From: Capitulum mitella
Taxonomy: Eukaryota; Arthropoda; Thecostraca; Pollicipedomorpha; Pollicipedidae
Reading direction: 5' to 3'
Length of the DNA stretch: 64,000 bases
NCBI GenBank assembly: GCA_030062745.1
Contig: CP099846.1
Span: forward strand, 186,001-250,000
Shown: piece after piece, positions 1,448 through 44,205 of the stretch
Numbering within the stretch: position 1 is the stretch's first letter
Layout: every line of letters begins with the position of its first letter
Notes under the pieces: generated by a model
What the model was told of the DNA's origin: nothing
Databases searched by the model: none
The model's input: the letters and a program-made list of their open reading frames with translations, nothing else
Position numbers and translations under genes: made by a program

Positions 1448-3075
1448 CTGGCGGACAAACGGGAAACTGACGGTGACGGCGACAGCGGCGCTCGCTACTC
1501 CGCACGAGCATTCCGCTGGGTTACGTCCGACACAGTGGGGCCACTAGTAGACAGCCGGGCAGGCTCTGGTGAAAGGGACGGCGGCGCCTGTTGGTTCGCA
1601 CCAGCCACCTGCTGGGCGAGGTCCGCTAAAGCGGCGCCACTGGCGGGGGCGTCGTTAACTGTTGGTGGTGGGGGACGCAGCGCTCGTTAGGTCTGCACCG
1701 GTAGCATCGCTGACGGGCAACCATGTGCAGTGATTCCGTGTTGGGCCCATTTTGTACTGAAACCCCAACAGACCGAGGCCGACGGATCACCTAGCCAATA
1801 CAGGTGCTGCTCCCTTAAAACCAATGGTCATGTGCTGACGGAATTCACTACGTATATATCACTTCATCCCAATGTCCATTTCCTGGCCTGGAAAAGGAAG
1901 CATGCAGACGCTAACTCATACCAGAAGGGTTGCGAGGTCCACAAAGCTTTCCCATTTGATCCAAACGGTTTGATGGGGTGATGTTAGGGATCGACAACCG
2001 TGCTAAGCAGAGTTTACTGCACACTTCGAGCCCTACACCTGACCGCGCACTCCCAGGTAAAGGCTGACTTTGCGGCGAAAGTTGAAAGTGCCGCCAAGGG
2101 CACCACAGACTACGTGCTAGCCAATCTCACTATATGTTGGACAGTTACCAGCTGACCAGGGAGCCAAATATCAGACCTGCCTTGCCAAGACGAAGAGACC
2201 AGCATTCAATCAACGGTCGCCCGGTGGCTTTACGTCAACATACGACCCTTGACTCTGAAGAATCGCGCCTCTATTGACCTAGTCTCGACCATTCGCAACA
2301 CTTCATATGGGCTCATGAAGTTCAGTACAAAATGGGCCCAGCATGGAGTCAGTAAAAATCACTTGGTTACACGTCACCGATTACCGGTGTTGGAGTGCCC
2401 ATAGTCCAAGGTAGTGGTGGACAAAAACACTGCTAGTGATGGAGGCGACAGTGTGGGGCAGGTTTAGCAACAACGCAGTGTTGGCGAGATTCCCAGCATG
2501 AATGTCACGGGCGGACAGGAGTCGGTGGTGGCGACGGGCACAACAATGCTCAGCTCAACATGTCCCAACAACCAAAAGCCTCTTTCTTCACAATTTGCCA
2601 AATGCATCACTCCATGATGAAGTATTACAGCATCATGAAATTCTTTTCAGACATATATCAACTTAGTCGAGCCATTTATGACACCACCAACAATCTTGTA
2701 ATACCCAAAAATATGCACATCTTAAAGCACTCAACAGAACCGTGCAACTTTTCCACAGTCTAGTAGTCCTGTCCACAAGTACTTAACACTTGTGTAACTG
2801 AAAGCTGAAAGAAGCTAAACTGATCATTTCAAGACATCAACGATCCACAGGCGTACCGTGCATGCGAGCATTCGGATGTTAAAACAAGATTTACCTCGCT
2901 TGTTTTTGGTGCCATTCTTTTTCGCTGTAGCAAGCTCTACTTCAATTTTCTTCTCTAGAAACTCCTGCTTCTTGAGGAGCATTTCCTCCGTTTCACGCAG
3001 CTTCTGAATGGCATCTCCAGTAGAGGGAGACTCGTTTTCCTTTTTACCGCCAAATATCTTGCTGAAGAAACTCAT
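1270..3075 (-). CDS. CHMP4: CHMP4 (Snf7/Shrub) ESCRT-III subunit, N-terminal part, gene runs off left edge
   Basis: CHMP4 is the main polymer-forming ESCRT-III subunit. It assembles on membranes and drives budding away from the cytosol, as in multivesicular body formation and abscission. Two exons are visible on the minus strand: 3075-2895 (residues 1-60 plus one base) and 1447-1270 (to the first two bases of codon 120). The start MSFFSKIFGG, the LRETEEML-KKQEFLEKKIE helix, KNGTKNKR, LKRKKRYEKQL and IDGTLSTIE-QREALE-ANTNT closely follow animal CHMP4, covering the basic membrane-binding helix 1 and helix 2. Exon 1 ends GCGAG|GTAAAT, exon 2 begins GCCAG|TGGCG, and the phase agrees. Exon 2 ends at CACAT|GTATGT, just before the conserved aspartate-rich helix 3. 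The remaining roughly 100 residues, including the MIM helix, are not found in 1-1269 and should lie to the left of the window. Confidence 0.93.
1448..2894 (-). other. CHMP4: CHMP4 intron 1
   Basis: Intron defined by matching splice phases of exons 1 and 2. The exon-2-proximal 270 bases are GC-rich and the remainder has mixed composition. I see no further exon or repeat in it. Confidence 0.8.
2895..3075 (-). CDS. CHMP4: CHMP4 coding exon 1
   Basis: Contains the initiator ATG at 3075-3073, in context CAAAATGAG. Encodes the short amphipathic N-terminus and most of helix 1. Donor is G|GTAAAT after one base of codon 61. Confidence 0.93.
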
Positions 3076-6905: not shown

Positions 6906-6914
6906 GCCTACTTG
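6906..6914. repeat. Target-site duplication, left copy
   Basis: GCCTACTTG directly before the left inverted arm of the foldback element; an identical copy lies at 7598-7606. Confidence 0.85.
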
Positions 6915-7074
6915 GGCAATCCTTTAGAAGCGCACGCCATAAACCAAGCACACTGGATGACACATATACGGCGCGCGTGGCAAAAGGAGACGTCAGCTGT
7001 TGCGAGAAACAACAACATTATGCACTGGAGCTCCAGGTCGTAGATCACCTACTATTCGCTCTTGTTTTACACAG

Positions 7075-7169
7075 TAGGTTAGGTTAGGTTAGGTTAGGTT
7101 AGGTTAGGTTAGGTTAGGTTAGGTTAGGTTACGTTACGTTACGTTACGTTAGGTTAGGTTAGGTTAGGT
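7075..7169 (+). repeat. GGTTA (TTAGG-type) pentamer array with CGTTA block
   Basis: Roughly twelve GGTTA units, four CGTTA variants, then five GGTTA units. The motif is the arthropod telomere pentamer, but it lies inside a transposon arm and so does not mark a chromosome end. Confidence 0.95.
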
Positions 7170-7313
7170 GGTAATCCTTTAGAAGCGTGCGCCATAAACC
7201 AAGCACACTGGATGACACATATACCGCGCGCGTGGCAAAAGGAGACGTCAGCTGTTGCGAGAAACAACAACATTATGCACTGGAGCTGCAGGGTCGTGGA
7301 TCACCTACTATTC

Positions 7314-7436
7314 GCTAACCTAACCTAACCTTACCTTACCTAACCTAACCTAACCTAACCTAACCTAACCTAACGTAACGTAACGTAACGTAACGTAACG
7401 TAACGTAACGTAACGTAACCTAACCTAACCTAACCT
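7314..7436 (-). repeat. TAACC/TAACG pentamer array
   Basis: The opposite-strand counterpart of the 7075 array, with a longer block of about ten TAACG variants in its middle. Together the two arrays extend the hairpin formed by the element's arms. Confidence 0.95.
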
Positions 7437-7597
7437 ACTGTGTAAAACAAGAGCGAATAGTAGGTGATCTACGACCTGGAGCTCCAGTGCATAATGTTGT
7501 TGTTTCTCGCAACAGCTGACGTCTCCTTTTGCCACGCGCGCCGTATATGTGTCATCCAGTGTGCTTGGTTTAAGGCGTGCGCTTCTAAAGGATTGCC

Positions 7598-7606
7598 GCC
7601 TACTTG
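7598..7606. repeat. Target-site duplication, right copy
   Basis: GCCTACTTG directly after the right inverted arm; identical to 6906-6914. Confidence 0.85.
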
Positions 7607-9140: not shown

Positions 9141-9589
9141 AATCTCAAACAATCCTTTGTATAATTGCCACCAATGTAAAGAATGTATCATCCTGGGCTT
9201 CGACCATACTTTCCACTACTTGATTTTCTAAAAAAAAATAACAACAAAATTGTAATGATGACATACTACACAGTAATACTGTGCTGCAGTTGACTGGCAG
9301 AGAACAACATTATTCCGTGGGGAAAATGTAGTGCCACCAAGGTTAAGGCTATTGACATCAAGGATGTTTAAACCCTGCATGCATCTTCAAGTGATTAATG
9401 ATGTCATACATATGAAAGTTCTATTCTGTTGCCACAAACTGAACTTGGATGAACTGCTGAATTATTATGCCATTATATTATTGTATTAGATAATTGTTGG
9501 GATATCTGATATCAGTATTATTACATTATGACATTTAATACTTGTTAGATTACATTAGGTTGCTAGGTTGGGTTGTGCTGGGCTAGGTT

Positions 9590-9740
9590 AGATAAGGTTA
9601 GGTTAGATAAGGTTAGGTTAGGTTAGGTTAGGTTATGTTAGGTTAGGTTAGGCTAGGCTAGGCTAGGCTAGGCTAGGCTAGGCTAGGCTAGGCTAGGCTA
9701 GGCTAGGCTGGGCTAGTCTAGGTTAGGTTAGGTTACTATG
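9590..9740 (+). repeat. GGTTA/GGCTA pentamer array
   Basis: GGTTA and GATAAGGTTA units followed by about thirteen consecutive GGCTA units and a few closing GGTTA units. GGCTA differs from the TTAGG-type motif by one base, so this looks like homogenisation of one variant. Confidence 0.95.
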
Positions 9741-11029
9741 TTATGTTTGGGTAATTTTCTATTTATTGTTTTATATCACTTCCTAATATTTTCCAGTTTT
9801 GTTCCGTGATTTCTTGATTTATTTTATTTCACTGCTTTTTTTGTATTTTTCAAATTGTAACTTCACTTTTCCATCTTTGTAATATTTTTGCTTTTTCATT
9901 ATCATTGTTTGTTATTATTATTACTATTTTATTGTTGTTATTATTGCTATTATTATTATTACAATGACTAACTTCTTTATTCTAAAGATAATTCATATCA
10001 CATTAGTTATTTCCCCAACCTTTTTTATTACTCTTGACTGGACCTGGAGTCCGACCGACGACCAGTCAGGTCGGAGATCTCACGTAAACAAACTATTTAA
10101 TGCAGAAACGTCAAAAATACCTATGCGAGCATCTGGCAGTTAGCATACCAGTGACGACTCAGTCTGTTTCAGTGGAAATAGTGTGTTTTTGGTTTTTCTG
10201 GCCGAAATCGTAAGCACTACTTATCAGTATTGCATTTGAAGTGCCATGCAACCACTGCTATGATTATTTTCCTTTGAAGTAAGCGCTCAGTCAAAATCTT
10301 ACTGTGGACCAAATTCTTTGTTGTTAGTTGCTGGGATGGTGTGCCTAGCAGCAGGTAGGAATCCAGTAACTAAAACCAGAATGGACCAAAAATGCTATTG
10401 TGTAGTATACCTTGGGTGCCTTGTTATCCTGCCAGTGACTCAGTGATCAGTTGGGCTTCCAGTAAGGATGTGGCCATTCCACTACTGCTCTGCCTGCCAC
10501 ATGGTAGTTGCAACCCAGTTTAGATATGTATGTGCATTCACCATAGAGCAATCCTTGCACCCGGTGTGAAGGAGGGAAATATGCTGTCATGGTTATTTAT
10601 TCAAATGGCTGCAGTATGTTACTTGTCACATCAATCATGTAACACAAATAAAGTTCTGAATATAAGTGCATAAAGTATGCAGTGTCAAAACAAAAGCACA
10701 ACAGGATGTCACACATGAACAGTCACTCTGCTCTGACACTACTCCCTCTGGCACAGGTATCATGTATTGCATTTAGGGTATGACATCAGCTGGACCTACC
10801 TTAACCCCACATAGGAGACTGGAGTATGGGGATTTTGGGTTTGGCACCCTCTGCACATGCATGTGTGGGAGCCAGCTGTGCAGGTATGAGAACCTGTTCA
10901 TGGTGGTCTTGGTGGCGGAGCCTCTCTCTCAAGCGCTCACTGCTGTTCCCATGCCCCTCTGCCCATGATGTCAGTCAGTGTACTCCACACCATGGCCATC
11001 TATATTCTGCACTACCACTATGACATGAC
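9741..11029. other. Non-coding, nothing recognised
   Basis: AT-rich to about 10.0 kb, with TTATTA-rich stretches at 9900-9965, then unremarkable sequence. No exon or RNA recognised. Confidence 0.4.
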
Positions 11030-12815
11030 ATTTGTCTCCTGCCTTAAAAAAGAACAGAGTGCTTGGTAGGAAAAGAAAGAGCTGAAAACAACAATGCTTA
11101 GATGGGTAGTGGGATGCACCATGCAGACAGGTTGAACTGTGACAGCTATGGGTCTCTGAGATGAAAACTTTAGCCCAAACAGCCAAAAGGCAGTGTGCTA
11201 GAGTAACAGCTCTTCTGGAGAAGTAGACTTCTACCTACCACTAACTCATGTGCCTGCCTACTGATGTGGTTACCTACCTCAGCTCTGCAGTACTGCACCT
11301 ATCATCACCTTTTATGATACCTAGTTTCTGTTTTATGCTGTTTGGTAGGTCATGAGACCTTGTTTTTTCAAGGTTGGAATATTTGTGTTTAAGTGCTTCT
11401 ATATTGCTACCCTATTGCAGCAAAAAGATTTTACACCCTGAAAAAATGTCAAATGGGCGTTCATAGGCCAATGTTGAACTCAGTATATGAACAAAAATTG
11501 TTTCATGGTTAACTAACTGCCTGCCCTCAGACCCCATACAGATTGTGAACATCTGATCAGCCAATAAATAGTTTGTCAGAATTTTCTAAGGGTAGTTTTG
11601 CTGAGGGGTAATTTAAACTGACTTTTATTAATCTAAGTTGGTTTATACCACCTTAAATCAATAAAAGCCACTGGCTGGCATAAATCCAATTTAAGTCAGC
11701 CTTTTCCAAGCCTGATTCAAACCAGGATTTGAACTGGCTGGTCCACATAAATGTATGCCACCAAGTGGATTAAACAAGACAGTGCAATTTAATTTCTGCC
11801 ACTTATGGCCTCTTGTCACAAACTTGTAAAATAGGCCATTAAAGCTAAATGTCACAATGCTTTTGCAACTTGCTGGTAACATTTCCATAATTGAGTCCTA
11901 ACACTACATTAGTCACAGTTTCAACCTAGGCTCCCATGACACCCAGTTGCAGTCAAGCTTAACTGCTTAGACAAAGGAATGTGCAAATTCAGTCTTTCTT
12001 CAGAATATAACACTTGGTGGAAAATAAGTAAATCCATTAACCAAATTCCTGATCATGTTGGGTGCTGGGAAGGCATACTTACAAGTGGGTGAAACCCATT
12101 GTTGAAAGTCTGAATGAGCCAGAAATGCTATCACTATGAACTGACATGCATTTCTTGTCTTATAAAATAAAGAACATAGTGCTTGCAAGAAAAAGACAGA
12201 ACAAATGTGGAATGCTAAAAAGAAGAATGCTTTGGTCAGAAGTGACAGCTATGGCTCTTTGAGATGAAAAGCTTAGGCCAAACAGCCAAAAGGCAAAGAG
12301 TGCTAGATTAACAGCTCTTCCAGAGTACCAGGCTTCTACCTGCCACTAGTTAAAGCACCTGCCTACCTGTGTGGTTAACTGCCCATGCTCTGCAGTACTG
12401 CACTTGTCACCACCTATCACAACATGCAGTTTTGATTTCAGACTATTTTGTGTATCATGGGGCCTCTTTTGTTGTGAGGGTGTCCATATTTCTTTTTGTT
12501 CCAGTACTGCCACATTGCTACCACATTGCATTAAAAAGACTGCACCCAGAAAAAAATCCCAGAAATGTATAACCAGAGTTGATGTTGAAGTCAATATACA
12601 TACTGAAATTGTTTCATTATTAAATAACCACATCCTCTCAGACTGCCTCTGGGTTGTAAACAGTTAATCTGGCAATAAATAGCTAGTCAGGATTTTTATG
12701 GGTAGGTTTTCTGAGGGGCAGAGTAAGCTGGCTTATTAATTTAAACCATTTTAAACTGGCTTTAAGCAATAAAAATCATTGGCTGGCATAAATTTAATGT
12801 AGGTCAGCTTTTTGA
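11030..12815 (-). mobile_element. Two tandem degraded copies of the hAT-like repeat family
   Basis: About 11030-11685 and 11685-12815 carry the same ordered blocks: CAGCCAAAAGGCA, ACAGCTCTTC, CTGCAGTACTGCAC, AATTGTTTCAT, CAATAAATAG and GAGGGG. They end near ACTGGCTGGCATAAAT. The same blocks occur in opposite orientation within 20027-21378. The first copy is truncated and the second nearly complete. Strand is given relative to the plus-read copy at 20 kb and is arbitrary. Confidence 0.7.
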
Positions 12816-20026: not shown

Positions 20027-21378
20027 TGGGGTTGAAAAACCGGTTTAAATTGAATTTGTGCCAGCCAGTGGCCTTAGTTAATTTCAACCAGTTTAAACGG
20101 GCTTTGATTAATAAAGCTGGCCTAAATTACCCCTCAGAAAAAACTCTAAAAAATACCAACAGGCTATTTATGGGTTTCTTAACTCACAACCCACAAGCTC
20201 ACAGCCCAAAGAGGGTCTAAGAGGAGGCAGTTTTTTATGTATGAAGCAATTTCAGTAGTATATGAATTTCAACATTGGCCCTTTGAACATCCATTTGTGG
20301 GGATTTTTCGTTGGGTGTAGTCTTTTTACTGCGAAGTGGTAGCGATGTGGCAGCATTGAAGCATCAGAGAATATTCCCCTCCCGTAACAAACAAGGCCTC
20401 ATGGCACGCAAAACAGTCTAAAACCAGACGACTGAATACGCCCGACGAGACACAAGACTTGACCCAAGACTTTGGACATCTGAACCCAGGAGGCTGTGTG
20501 TCGTAACTCACAAATAAACAAACAGTCTAAAACCAAAACTGCGTGTTGTGATAGGTGGTGATAAGTGTAAAACCAAAACTGCATGTTGTAATAGGTGGTG
20601 ATAGGTGCAGTATTGCAGAGTTCAGGTAGAGAACTGCATAAGCAGACAAGTGCATAGACTAGTGCTAGGTAGAAGCGTGCTTTTCTGGAAGAGCTGCTGA
20701 TCTAGCTCACTGCCTTTTGATTGGTCTAAACTTTTCATCTCAAAAAGCCGTAGCCATTATGGCTCAAGCTGTTTGTATCGGACATCCCGCCTACCCGCCT
20801 AAGCATTCTTGTTTTGAGCATTCTGCATTTGCTCTTCCTTTTTCTTGGAAGCATTCTGTTGTTTATTTTTTAAGGCACGAAAAGAACGTCAGTTCATAGT
20901 GATAGCAATAGCGATATTTCTGGAACATTCAGATTTTAGACACTGGATTTCTGCCTTTTGGTAGCAACATCTTCCCAGGGCCCAACAAGACCAGGAATTT
21001 GATTAATGGGTTCATTTGCATTCCACTGAGTGCTGTATTGTTAGGAATGGCTGCAGTTCCACTTTCCTTTGTCTCACCATTTCTGCTTGACTATGACTGG
21101 TTGTCATGGGTGCTTAAGTTGAGATCGTGACTGATGTAGTGATAGGTCGCAGTTTTGAAAATCATAGTTTTGGTTTTGATCAGCCAGCCCCAAAAGCAGT
21201 ATGACATGTATGTTTAAAAGCTATGTACAATTTAATGGCAAAAAGCTGTAAGTGGCTAAAATTGAATTGTATTGTCTGAGTTAAACTACTAGATGGCCTA
21301 AATTTGTTTAGACCAGCTGGTTTAAATAGTGGTTTCAGCCAGTTTAAACCAGGTGTTGGCTGAAATTTGCCAACCCTG
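20027..21378. mobile_element. Complete non-autonomous hAT-like element
   Basis: A 1352-bp element. Its left end reads TGGGGTTGAAAAACC and its right end, read inward, CAGGGTTGGCAAATTT, an imperfect inverted pair typical of hAT elements. It is flanked by an 8-bp duplication, ATCATTTC (20019-20026) and ATCATTTT (21379-21386), with one mismatch. Its interior has no transposase reading frame. Other copies are at 8678-9140 and 11030-12815. The hAT class is inferred from the ends and the duplication length. Confidence 0.75.
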
Positions 21379-34600: not shown

Positions 34601-37600
34601 TGCCGTCCGCTCCGTCAGCTTCCCGAGCCACAATCCAACAAATGGTTGGCGGCTGACGAACAACATAAAACAACGCACCCCGCGACCACCACAACGATTT
34701 TTGTTGTTTAGTCAGCGCAGAGTCATCAACAGAGGTCACTGTTCCAGAGTAAGTTCTCAGAACAAACCAGTGTATCTGGCACGCAGCTGGGACGTCTCAC
34801 AGTTCTTTTCATTTTGCCTGCCCGGCCCATGGGTGCTGGCAGCATAGTATAAACAGCCGTACAGTTATACACCGTTTCCAGGGCTTCCTCTGCCGCAGCT
34901 GTCACTGACCCCCAGCCCCACAATTCCACCTAAATGACCGACTGAGAGAAGCGCAACTGTCTCTGGCATGGCACAGGCTCTCGTAAGTCAATCTCTGCTC
35001 CGCCACGGTCTCTCGTATGCCACAGTCCCTGCCGTGGCACGATCTCTGGTACACCATGGTCCCTGGTATGTCCACGGTCTCTGGTTTGTCACGATCCCAG
35101 GCACGGCACGGTCTCTGGTATGGCACGGTTTCTGGTATGACACCGTCTGTGGTACGTCACGGTTTCCGACATGCCACGGCCTATGGTATGCCGCGGTCTC
35201 CGACATGCCACGGCCTATGGTACGTCGTGGTCTCCGACATGCCACGGTTTCTGGTATGGCGCGGCCTTTGGTATGCCACGGTCTCTGGCATGTCACGGTC
35301 TCTGGCATGTCACACCTCTGGAATGACACGGTCTCCTCTACACCTCACCACTCACCTTCCCGAGCGCCTCCGGGTGGAGCAGCTCCTGGACGGCGACCAG
35401 GCCAAGACCAGCCTCCAGGATGGTGCGACACACCACCTCCAGCACACCCGGGTTGGCCGCCTTGTCAGCGCACAGCCGCTCCAGGTTCCAGGTGGCTAGC
35501 CGGAACACAGGTCGACCGCCGCGGTGGCTCATGAACACCTGGCGCCGGCGGACGGGTCAGTCGCACGGCGACACCACACAGCGCCACACAGCGACACACA
35601 GAGCCAGTCGCCGCGACAGCACCGTACCATACAGCAGTCTCTGATGAACGGATCGCGTACGACGAAACATGCAGTCTTACAGGATTGCAACATAAAGCCG
35701 GATACACGTACAGGACTGACTTGGTTCGACCAACGCAAGATAAAGGCCATTATTTTGCGTCTTGTGATAACAGTTGCCAGGTTTCGACAGGGCAAATGAC
35801 TAAAATCGCATACCCAAAATGTATATTCACGACTAGGAACAAACGACCAAGAGGGAGCACATGCAGTATAGAAATGACCACATACTGCACCTCCTCCGCT
35901 GCCAACAACTCGCACCGTTACGTAAAAACAGCTTCCAGCCGGGGTACGCCACACTTCCTGCACGGCCGCCACAATGAGCGCCGCCACCACCAGCAGGCCC
36001 ACCTCCTCAAGGACGGGCCGGGGCGAGTGCAGGGCCAGCAGCTCGCAGATGTCGCCGGACGCCTCCAGGTACGGCCCGGCGGCCAGGCCGAGCGGTACCG
36101 AGTGCGTGCGCCGGTGGCCGGGCCGGGCGGCGGCCGGCGCCGGCGGCGGCGCGCCCACCTCCGGCGGCGCCGTCACCGACGTCTTCTCGCTGCTGTTGCT
36201 CTCGTGCTCGCTGGCGTCGTCGAGCGTGAAGTAGTGGCGCAGCACGCCGACCGAGCGGCGCGACACGCCGCGCACCTTGGCCAGCTGGCGCAGCGAGCGG
36301 AAGCCGCCCTTCTTGTCGCGGTACTGCACGATCCGGTCGGCCGTCTCCTGGCAGATGAACTGCACCTGCATCAGGTCGAAGATCGTGGCCGTGTTGATGT
36401 TGATCTTGTGCGGCGAGCCGGAGCCCGGCGTGCTCCCCGGGCTGTCCGGGACAAAGCATGACGTCGTCCCCGGCACCCTGCCGACGGCCAAAACGTCAGA
36501 TACACTGAAACTATGATATCACCGGAACCCTGCTGGCAGCCAGGACATCATTATAATGTGCGCATTATGACGTCAACGAGATCCTTCTGGCAGCCTGGAC
36601 GTCGTGTTCATGTGGACACTATGACATCACTGGCATCCTGCCAGCAGCCATGTCGTGTCACGCAGTGCTGGAAAGATAATGTGGCACGAACTCCTTTGGT
36701 CTGCTTGACAGCGCATATTCACAATGGTTCGCTTGAAGACCCTGTTTGTCATTTTGATCTACGGACAGCTGGCTTCGATCACACCTTTATGGTGGCCCTA
36801 TTTCAGGACAGAGCAAGTCAGTGAACAAACATGAAATATTGTTCCAATACTGCCAAAAAATGGGCAAATGACGCAACAACGGCCAGGGCAGTTGCAGTAC
36901 GACTAAAAGTGGGGGGGGGGCATTCGTTCAGGGGACGCCGACTTCCACGGGGGCGTCAATCCCAGGAGGGGCACCATCTTCTTGGAATGAGATTGGTATC
37001 ATGCTTAGAGAGATTTAACTGCACGCATCTCGACGCCTTTTTATACCGAGATAAATATATACGAATGGAACCCAGAGAGCCAGATGAAGTGGATTCTTTT
37101 TGCCATTTTGATGTCTGAACGGGGGCGCCATGGAGCGCCAAGTCTGTGAGGGATGCCTGATGATAGCAATTAAGTTTATAGCGTTCGGAATACATTATCA
37201 CATCGGCGCCCACAGGTAGGTCTGATCTGTACCTGCCTCCCGGCCCGTAAAGGGTTCCTGTCTTTTAAGATGTGCCTGGTCTGTGAGAGGCGCCGAGTCC
37301 CTGAACTGAAACGGATGTGTACGGGATGGGGCGCCCGACCTGTATGATGCGCCAAATATATGAGGGATGTCCGATCCGTTGGAGGGCGCCTGGTTTGGGA
37401 GGGGCGCCGTGTAAGCGATTGTAAGGGGCGCCTGGCGACGGCGATTCGGGTTTTGCGGGACCTCCGACTGTACGGTTACATGACGTCCTAAAAGGCGACT
37501 AATCTGAACAAGGGCGCCTGACCTGTAAGAGGTGCGTGCCTTGTAAAATGTGCCTGGTCTGCGTGGGGTCCCAAGACCCGTACGGGGGACTGGTCAATCC

Positions 37601-43518: not shown

Positions 43519-43669
43519 CAGGGGCGCAGTCAGGATTTTCTTCGGGGAGCTCCGTGTTACCTGAAATCATGCGAAAACCGCCTGCTGGGAAGACGATGTG
43601 CAATAGTTTCCACAAAAAAGCGGGGCCTAAGGGGAGGCGGCCCCCGGGCCTCCTTTGGCTGTGCCGGTG
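43519..43669 (+). mobile_element. hAT-like MITE, 151 bp
   Basis: Starts CAGGGGCGCAGTCAGGATTT. Its other end, read inward, is CACCGGCACAGCCAAAGG, an imperfect inverted pair. It is flanked by ACGCCAGG (43511-43518) and ACGCCAAG (43670-43677), an 8-bp duplication with one mismatch. Confidence 0.75.
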
Positions 43670-44048
43670 ACGCCAAGCAATGTAGATCACGTGATACAAG
43701 CCGCCGTAAATAGTGGCGTCTGGAACGGCTCTGAAACCGTACAGTTCTGTGAGCAACACTGGACCGACAGTTAGAATCAAGCATGAATTTTTCACTGATA
43801 CTTGATATTCCGGCGTCTTTCGCTGCAGCCCACCTAAAAGGCTAGATCCATGCCTCCTACTGACGCGACCTAAATGGAAGAAGCATACGATGCACCTAGG
43901 TGGCTGGCATCACATCTATGAATGATGCGCCAGTGTGTCCCATATCGAGCCAAACAGTCTCCCTTTATCGAGCTCGTTTTTACTGCAGTCGGTCGCAATG
44001 TTAACCAATCATAGATCTCACCAGACCCTTGTCAATGACAGCCCCCGA

Positions 44049-44205
44049 CATAGGCACAGCCAAGGAGGGCCCGGGGCCCGGCCCTCCTACGGCCCTCATT
44101 TTTTTGTGAAAACCATTACACATTGTCTTATCGGTAGGCGGTTTTCGTATGTTTCCAGTTCACGTTCAGTTCGTCCCCCATAAGAAAATCCTGACTGCGC
44201 CCCTG
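44049..44205 (-). mobile_element. hAT-like MITE, opposite-orientation copy
   Basis: Same family as 43519-43669 but inverted; its ends read CATAGGCACAGCCAAGG and, inward from 44205, CAGGGGCGCAGTCAGGATTT. A clean target duplication is not visible. With the first copy it makes a 687-bp foldback. Confidence 0.7.

Follow-up and report, generated by a model that had tools for sequence, protein, structure and literature searches.

Long terminal inverted repeats (TIRs) and a target-site duplication (TSD) of 8-11 bp are features of Mutator-like elements, or MULEs (PMC6446971); TIRs of decapod MULEs span 22-777 bp (table, last column, PMC13359780), and most arthropod MULEs have G or C bases in the first three TIR positions (PMC13359780). 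In Aedes aegypti, 12 of 14 MULE families have TIRs of more than 100 bp, and 10 of these 12 carry subterminal tandem repeats of 9-15 bp; one of the elements from this species, Muta1, is called a type 2 foldback element, with derivatives that vary in repeat number (PMC5225508). Comparable short duplications recur in related families, such as Tm1 of nematodes, in which 45 of 53 complete elements have TSDs of 8-10 bp, mostly 9 (PMC3169594), and MuTAnT, whose 14 copies (out of 218) that lie outside perfect TA microsatellites indicate 9-nt TSDs (PMC4486113). Miniature elements (MITEs) with hitchhiking microsatellites have been described in moths (Coates et al., as cited in PMC4486113), and the authors of Tetris, who had no transposase to go by, suggested Mutator on account of its foldback form and the length of its TSDs (PMC4079207).

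The window considered here, that is, the whole 64-kb stretch of Capitulum mitella DNA that was analysed, contains a 683-bp DNA-transposon insertion at 6915-7597 (Table 1). The 9-bp sequence GCCTACTTG stands flush against both element ends, GGCAATCC...GGATTGCC, so that the perfect 9-bp target duplication claimed by the sequence-only reading is exact on both sides. The window was also scanned for perfectly matching 11-mers in inverted orientation, separated by 60-12,000 bp and bordered by identical repeats of 4-10 bp; among the pairs listed, which omit flanking repeats made of at most two letter types, this element alone has a 9-bp flanking repeat. When every 7th spacing from 500 to 899 bp was sampled, excluding the element region and two simple-repeat stretches, the same 9-mer recurred at 20 of 3,566,681 positions in the window, a background of about 6 per million, and the single pair among 63,299 at a spacing of exactly 692 can, by its coordinates, be the element's own TSD.

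Table 1. Parts of the 683-bp element and its flanking duplications, in window positions
Feature	Positions	Strand	Basis
Left target-site duplication GCCTACTTG	6906..6914	.	direct sequence and inverted 11-mer scan
Left terminal inverted arm, 160 bp, tip GGCAATCCTTTAGAAGCG	6915..7074	+	sequence comparison
TTAGG-type array, 19 units including a block of 4 TACGT	7075..7169	+	
Internal third arm copy, left-arm orientation	7170..7316	+	blastn/alignment
TTAGG-type array (TAACC on plus), 24 units including a block of 9 TACGT and 2 AAGGT, plus 1 base	7317..7437	-	
Right terminal inverted arm, 159/160 identical to left arm	7438..7597	-	
Right target-site duplication GCCTACTTG	7598..7606	.	direct sequence and inverted 11-mer scan

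Tandem arrays and palindromes are hard to assemble, and a single copy of the element was observed. Both facts would suit a reading in which no transposon is involved and the locus consists of rearranged pentamer arrays or of an assembly error at a palindrome. Against this stand the arms, which are non-array sequence, and an exact 9-bp duplication placed at their exact ends over the low background just given, and we regard such an origin as the least probable of those considered, very improbable in absolute terms.

The other structural claims of the sequence-only reading held as well. It had described inverted arms of about 160 bp, an extra internal copy of the arm, and TTAGG-type and TAACC-type arrays that face each other; the arms are 160 bp each and differ at one base, the internal copy is present at about 95% identity to them, and both arrays read TTAGG inward from their arms. 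Taken together in inverted register, arm plus array match at 245 of 255 positions, and both arms enter their array at the identical base, at the junction ACACAG|TAGGT. The left array is composed of (TAGGT)11(TACGT)4(TAGGT)4, and the right array, read from its arm inward, of (TAGGT)4(TACGT)9(TAGGT)7(AAGGT)2(TAGGT)2 plus one base. It is mainly because the arms are nearly identical and share the junction base that we favor a common descent of the two arrays, which lie within the inverted unit and probably moved with the element.

A block of one variant, CGTTA/TAACG, in each array had been taken as a sign of copying between the arms. The block does occur in both arrays, and among the three pentamer arrays compared in the window the TACGT variant is confined to these two, but on its own it is weak evidence, since two arrays would share a variant type by chance about 13% of the time under a crude random model. 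That copying between the arms was probable is better argued from the outer arms themselves, which are 1 base in 160 apart, whereas the internal copy departs from the left arm in 7 of 147 columns.

Folded as DNA, the element reaches -328.5 kcal/mol, compared with a mean of -92.3 for 20 shuffles. Long inverted ends, internal tandem repeats and the capacity to form a hairpin give it the structure of a foldback element. The expectation that nearly all 683 bp would close into one hairpin was too generous in extent, as a single register pairs 2 x 255 = 510 of 683 nt (75%) and leaves a 173-nt loop, which takes in the internal arm copy together with 26 nt from the array. The internal copy also shows 95% complementarity, along 128 nt, to the right arm region.

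We interpret the locus as a non-autonomous foldback-type DNA transposon of the group with 9-bp TSDs, most likely Mutator-like, with a probability of roughly 0.72. A transposase supplied in trans would recognise the long inverted arms, excise the element and reinsert it with a 9-bp duplication, and the arrays would be either passive cargo or subterminal repeats. Mobility in trans, superfamily membership and history are points that we infer from this anatomy. The MULE features reviewed above find their counterparts here in an exact 9-bp TSD (from one insertion), in TIRs of 160 bp with 159 identical bases (255 bp if the array is included), where MULE TIRs often exceed 100 bp, and in outer arms that begin with GGC. 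From one insertion, Mutator membership is likely; it falls short of proof because Merlin and Rehavkus elements also give 9-bp duplications. The part of the sequence-only reading that called this a Mutator-like foldback element therefore stands for the foldback-shaped transposon, the 9-bp TSD and the telomere-type arrays, and is less secure for the superfamily.

If the element belonged instead to Merlin (IS1016-related), the outline of the mechanism would be the same, with another transposase. The 5'-GG ends, a TIR within 24-462 bp and a TSD of 8 or 9 bp, all found in the element, match the features given for Merlin in PMC8101967, the abstract of which also reports Merlin families with internal tandem repeats. 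Most of the Merlin families named in the excerpts used, however, have 8-bp TSDs (PMC8101967), and many mosquito MULE families are described as having foldback ends with subterminal repeats (PMC5225508); we consider a Merlin assignment unlikely. An assignment to a non-autonomous Rehavkus, which we place next after it and also think unlikely, would place the element in a MULE-related group whose inverted ends can hold tandem copies of a terminal unit. Rehavkus is listed for Arthropoda and Annelida with a 9-bp TSD, TIRs of 26-400 bp and a minisatellite (Table 1 of PMC6446971), and the inverted termini of Rehavkus-1_TC contain a 164-bp satellite unit repeated in short arrays (PMC10218199), to which the directly repeated 147-bp arm copy could correspond. 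TSD and TIR length here fall within these values, and tandem repeats do adjoin both arms, but their 5-bp unit makes them microsatellites where Rehavkus has a minisatellite beside the TIR, and the element holds one extra arm copy only. No transposase of the MULE DDE, the PHD-finger Rehavkus or the Merlin DDE_Tnp_IS1595 type was detected in the 135 distinct stop-to-stop ORFs scanned among 475 of at least 60 aa (132 of the 135 start before 25 kb), a result that may count against the Mutator-like reading and, for the PHD-finger type, against Rehavkus.

Returning to the Mutator-like foldback reading, the internal arm copy is the part whose history is most involved. It is 95.2% identical to the left arm and 94.6% to the right arm over 147 columns; the 7 columns that differ from the left arm comprise six substitutions and one inserted base, with the alignment read by eye. 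It starts exactly at the terminus (GGTAATCC), with GGT in place of the GGC of both outer arms, lacks the last 14 arm bases (CTTGTTTTACACAG), and ends in ATTCGCT before passing into AACCT units through a CT that is common to arm and array. Compared with 1 difference in 320 for the outer arms, its 7 in 147 give p = 0.0016 (Fisher) or p = 0.0018 (binomial), on the assumptions that columns are independent and that the differences of the internal copy are all its own. Since the internal copy is more diverged than the outer arms are from each other, it predates the last homogenisation of the outer arms or came from another copy; a recent duplication from an outer arm is disfavored by the same counts. 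The simple form of a whole second element inserted in the first was rejected, since a second element should have brought its own right-hand end and a duplication to match, and the internal copy has neither: it is preceded by the 9 bases AGGTTAGGT, and those after the right arm are GCCTACTTG.

In the history that we envisage, the arm would already have contained a pentamer array by the time today's two arms became alike, through inverted duplication or gene conversion, and the array blocks would afterwards have changed in length by slippage. The internal arm copy would derive from another, older copy of the element. We infer that it arrived in one of two ways: gap repair may have switched templates from one pentamer array to another, or a copy may have inserted into an array and then lost part of its sequence by deletion, with the junction at the 2-base CT overlap.

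The same anatomy could be taken to mean that telomerase had a part in it. A transposon end broken during transposition would have been given TTAGG repeats by telomerase, two such ends would have been joined head to head, and the resulting foldback would later have been mobilised, so that telomere machinery and transposon would jointly seed internal telomere tracts. Both arrays read TTAGG toward the center and abut their arm at one and the same base, which is what a healed end would look like, and their TTAGG-CCTAA orientation is that of telomere-telomere fusions. But a microsatellite that grew within the arm before its inversion gives the identical orientation, and the window holds a third pentamer array without arms. 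Microsatellites of the AACCT type are plentiful in fosmid end sequences of Penaeus monodon (PMC3124438). We hold such an origin to be very unlikely, though somewhat less so than an artefact; as it is compatible with any superfamily, our odds for the several explanations are not mutually exclusive and sum to slightly more than 1.

The third array, at 9562-9735, contains 14 CTAGG and no TTACG, and blastn (E 0.01) found no match to the transposon arms there or elsewhere in the window outside the element; with such an arm-less array nearby, the element is not required to explain every array. To the left of the element, a Snf7 model matches 2 of 132 ORFs, on the minus strand, in what is presumably a CHMP4-like gene. 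Two likely exons of this gene were noted, at 1017-1520 and at about 3015, both on the minus strand, with an N-terminal peptide, MSFFSKIFGGKKENESPSTGDAIQKLRETEE, near 3015, and the element lies about 4 kb upstream of the gene. To the right, an ORF with an HhH_3 domain occupies 35529-36518. With the CHMP4-like gene about 4 kb away and the HhH-domain exon further to the right, the element does not lie beside a terminal array within the window. The TTAGG-type arrays themselves would point to an animal host, probably an arthropod.

Several other repeats were seen in passing. An inverted-repeat structure of about 690 bp at 1696-2389 has CACCGGTA ends and arms 77% alike, and another inverted repeat (76%) at 43519-44205 has ends CAGGGGCGCAGTCAGGATTTTC, which we take to resemble hAT-type termini; by eye, neither has a target duplication. 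Diverged repeats (68-72%) at 11012-12813 and 20045-21376, several hundred bp long and arranged both directly and inverted, are perhaps an old repeat family. GC content is mostly 50-60% from 24000 to 64000, where minisatellites are many, and the left part is mostly AT-richer.

Searches for relatives were made by blastn within the window, where no other copy of the element was found (E 0.01), and in collections of viruses, prokaryotes, phages and plasmids, in which absences say little. Two patterns had no match in prokaryote genomes, nor did the whole element against phages or the left arm against plasmids by BLAST. In viral contigs, the 18-base tip had one match, taken as chance after no further arm similarity was seen by eye in 501 bases; two other arm pieces had none, and TTAGG x5 occurred at 9 loci, where inspection by eye of one array per locus showed no arm within 40 bases to either side. 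Rfam (at gathering scores) and a tRNA scan returned nothing for the window. Ciliate TBE1 and Tel-1 elements bear telomere repeats at their tips and are a precedent for the general idea. In the open-licence PMC literature, none of the titles and abstract beginnings among the matches listed tells of TTAGG arrays within the inverted ends of a transposon.

With such tracts inside a transposon, a telomere-type repeat is no sure sign of a chromosome end. Should the family have many copies, telomere-type tracts could be carried to internal sites directly, by cut-and-paste transposition; TTAGG arrays in assemblies would then be taken for chromosome ends only with caution, and the arrays could be dated from the arms that carry them. 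In the crayfish Pontastacus leptodactylus, FISH shows interstitial TTAGG signals on eight chromosome pairs, and such signals are reported for other decapods too (PMC7859515).

Foldback MULEs with subterminal repeats are known, as is the carriage of microsatellites by transposons; the unusual point here is the identity of the repeat, which is the telomere motif of arthropods. The likeness to Merlin is one of 5'-GG ends, TIR length range and an 8- or 9-bp TSD, and the excerpted text of PMC8101967 does not mention a foldback form. Rehavkus, for example Rehavkus-1_TC with TCsat23, resembles the element in its 9-bp TSD, in its arthropod hosts and in having tandem repeats within or next to its inverted ends (PMC6446971, PMC10218199), but Rehavkus-1_TC is 9.5 kb long with 164-bp satellite units, against 683 bp and pentamers here (PMC10218199). 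In penaeid shrimp, where transposons are reported as microsatellite carriers, they likewise carry and spread simple repeats in a crustacean; that case, as excerpted, is a genome-wide association and not a single element with telomere-type arrays in inverted ends (PMC7878876).

Among foldback elements, Tetris of Drosophila virilis is similarly non-autonomous, with 8-10 bp TSDs and tandem repeats in its TIRs, but its TIR-220 repeats seeded a satellite, and pentamers are not mentioned in the excerpts used (PMC4079207). MuTAnT, a Mutator-like family of Medicago, is made up of small MULE derivatives of foldback form, whose modular TIRs measure about 144 bp; there, in contrast, the microsatellite is the target outside the element and no part of MuTAnT (PMC4486113). 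Tm1, a Mutator/Foldback family of root-knot nematodes, offers composite inverted ends, a variable number of short repeats and MITE-like members. It differs in a motif of about 14 bp and in asymmetric 7-bp tips outside the inverted repeat, and the main text of the Tm1 paper contains no word starting "telomer" (PMC3169594). In the MULEs of Aedes aegypti, the repeat units are 9-15 bp and autonomous copies are known, whereas the element here has 5-bp units, but Muta1 and other MULEs of that species resemble it in their TSDs of 8-9 bp, their long TIRs and their short subterminal tandem repeats (PMC5225508).
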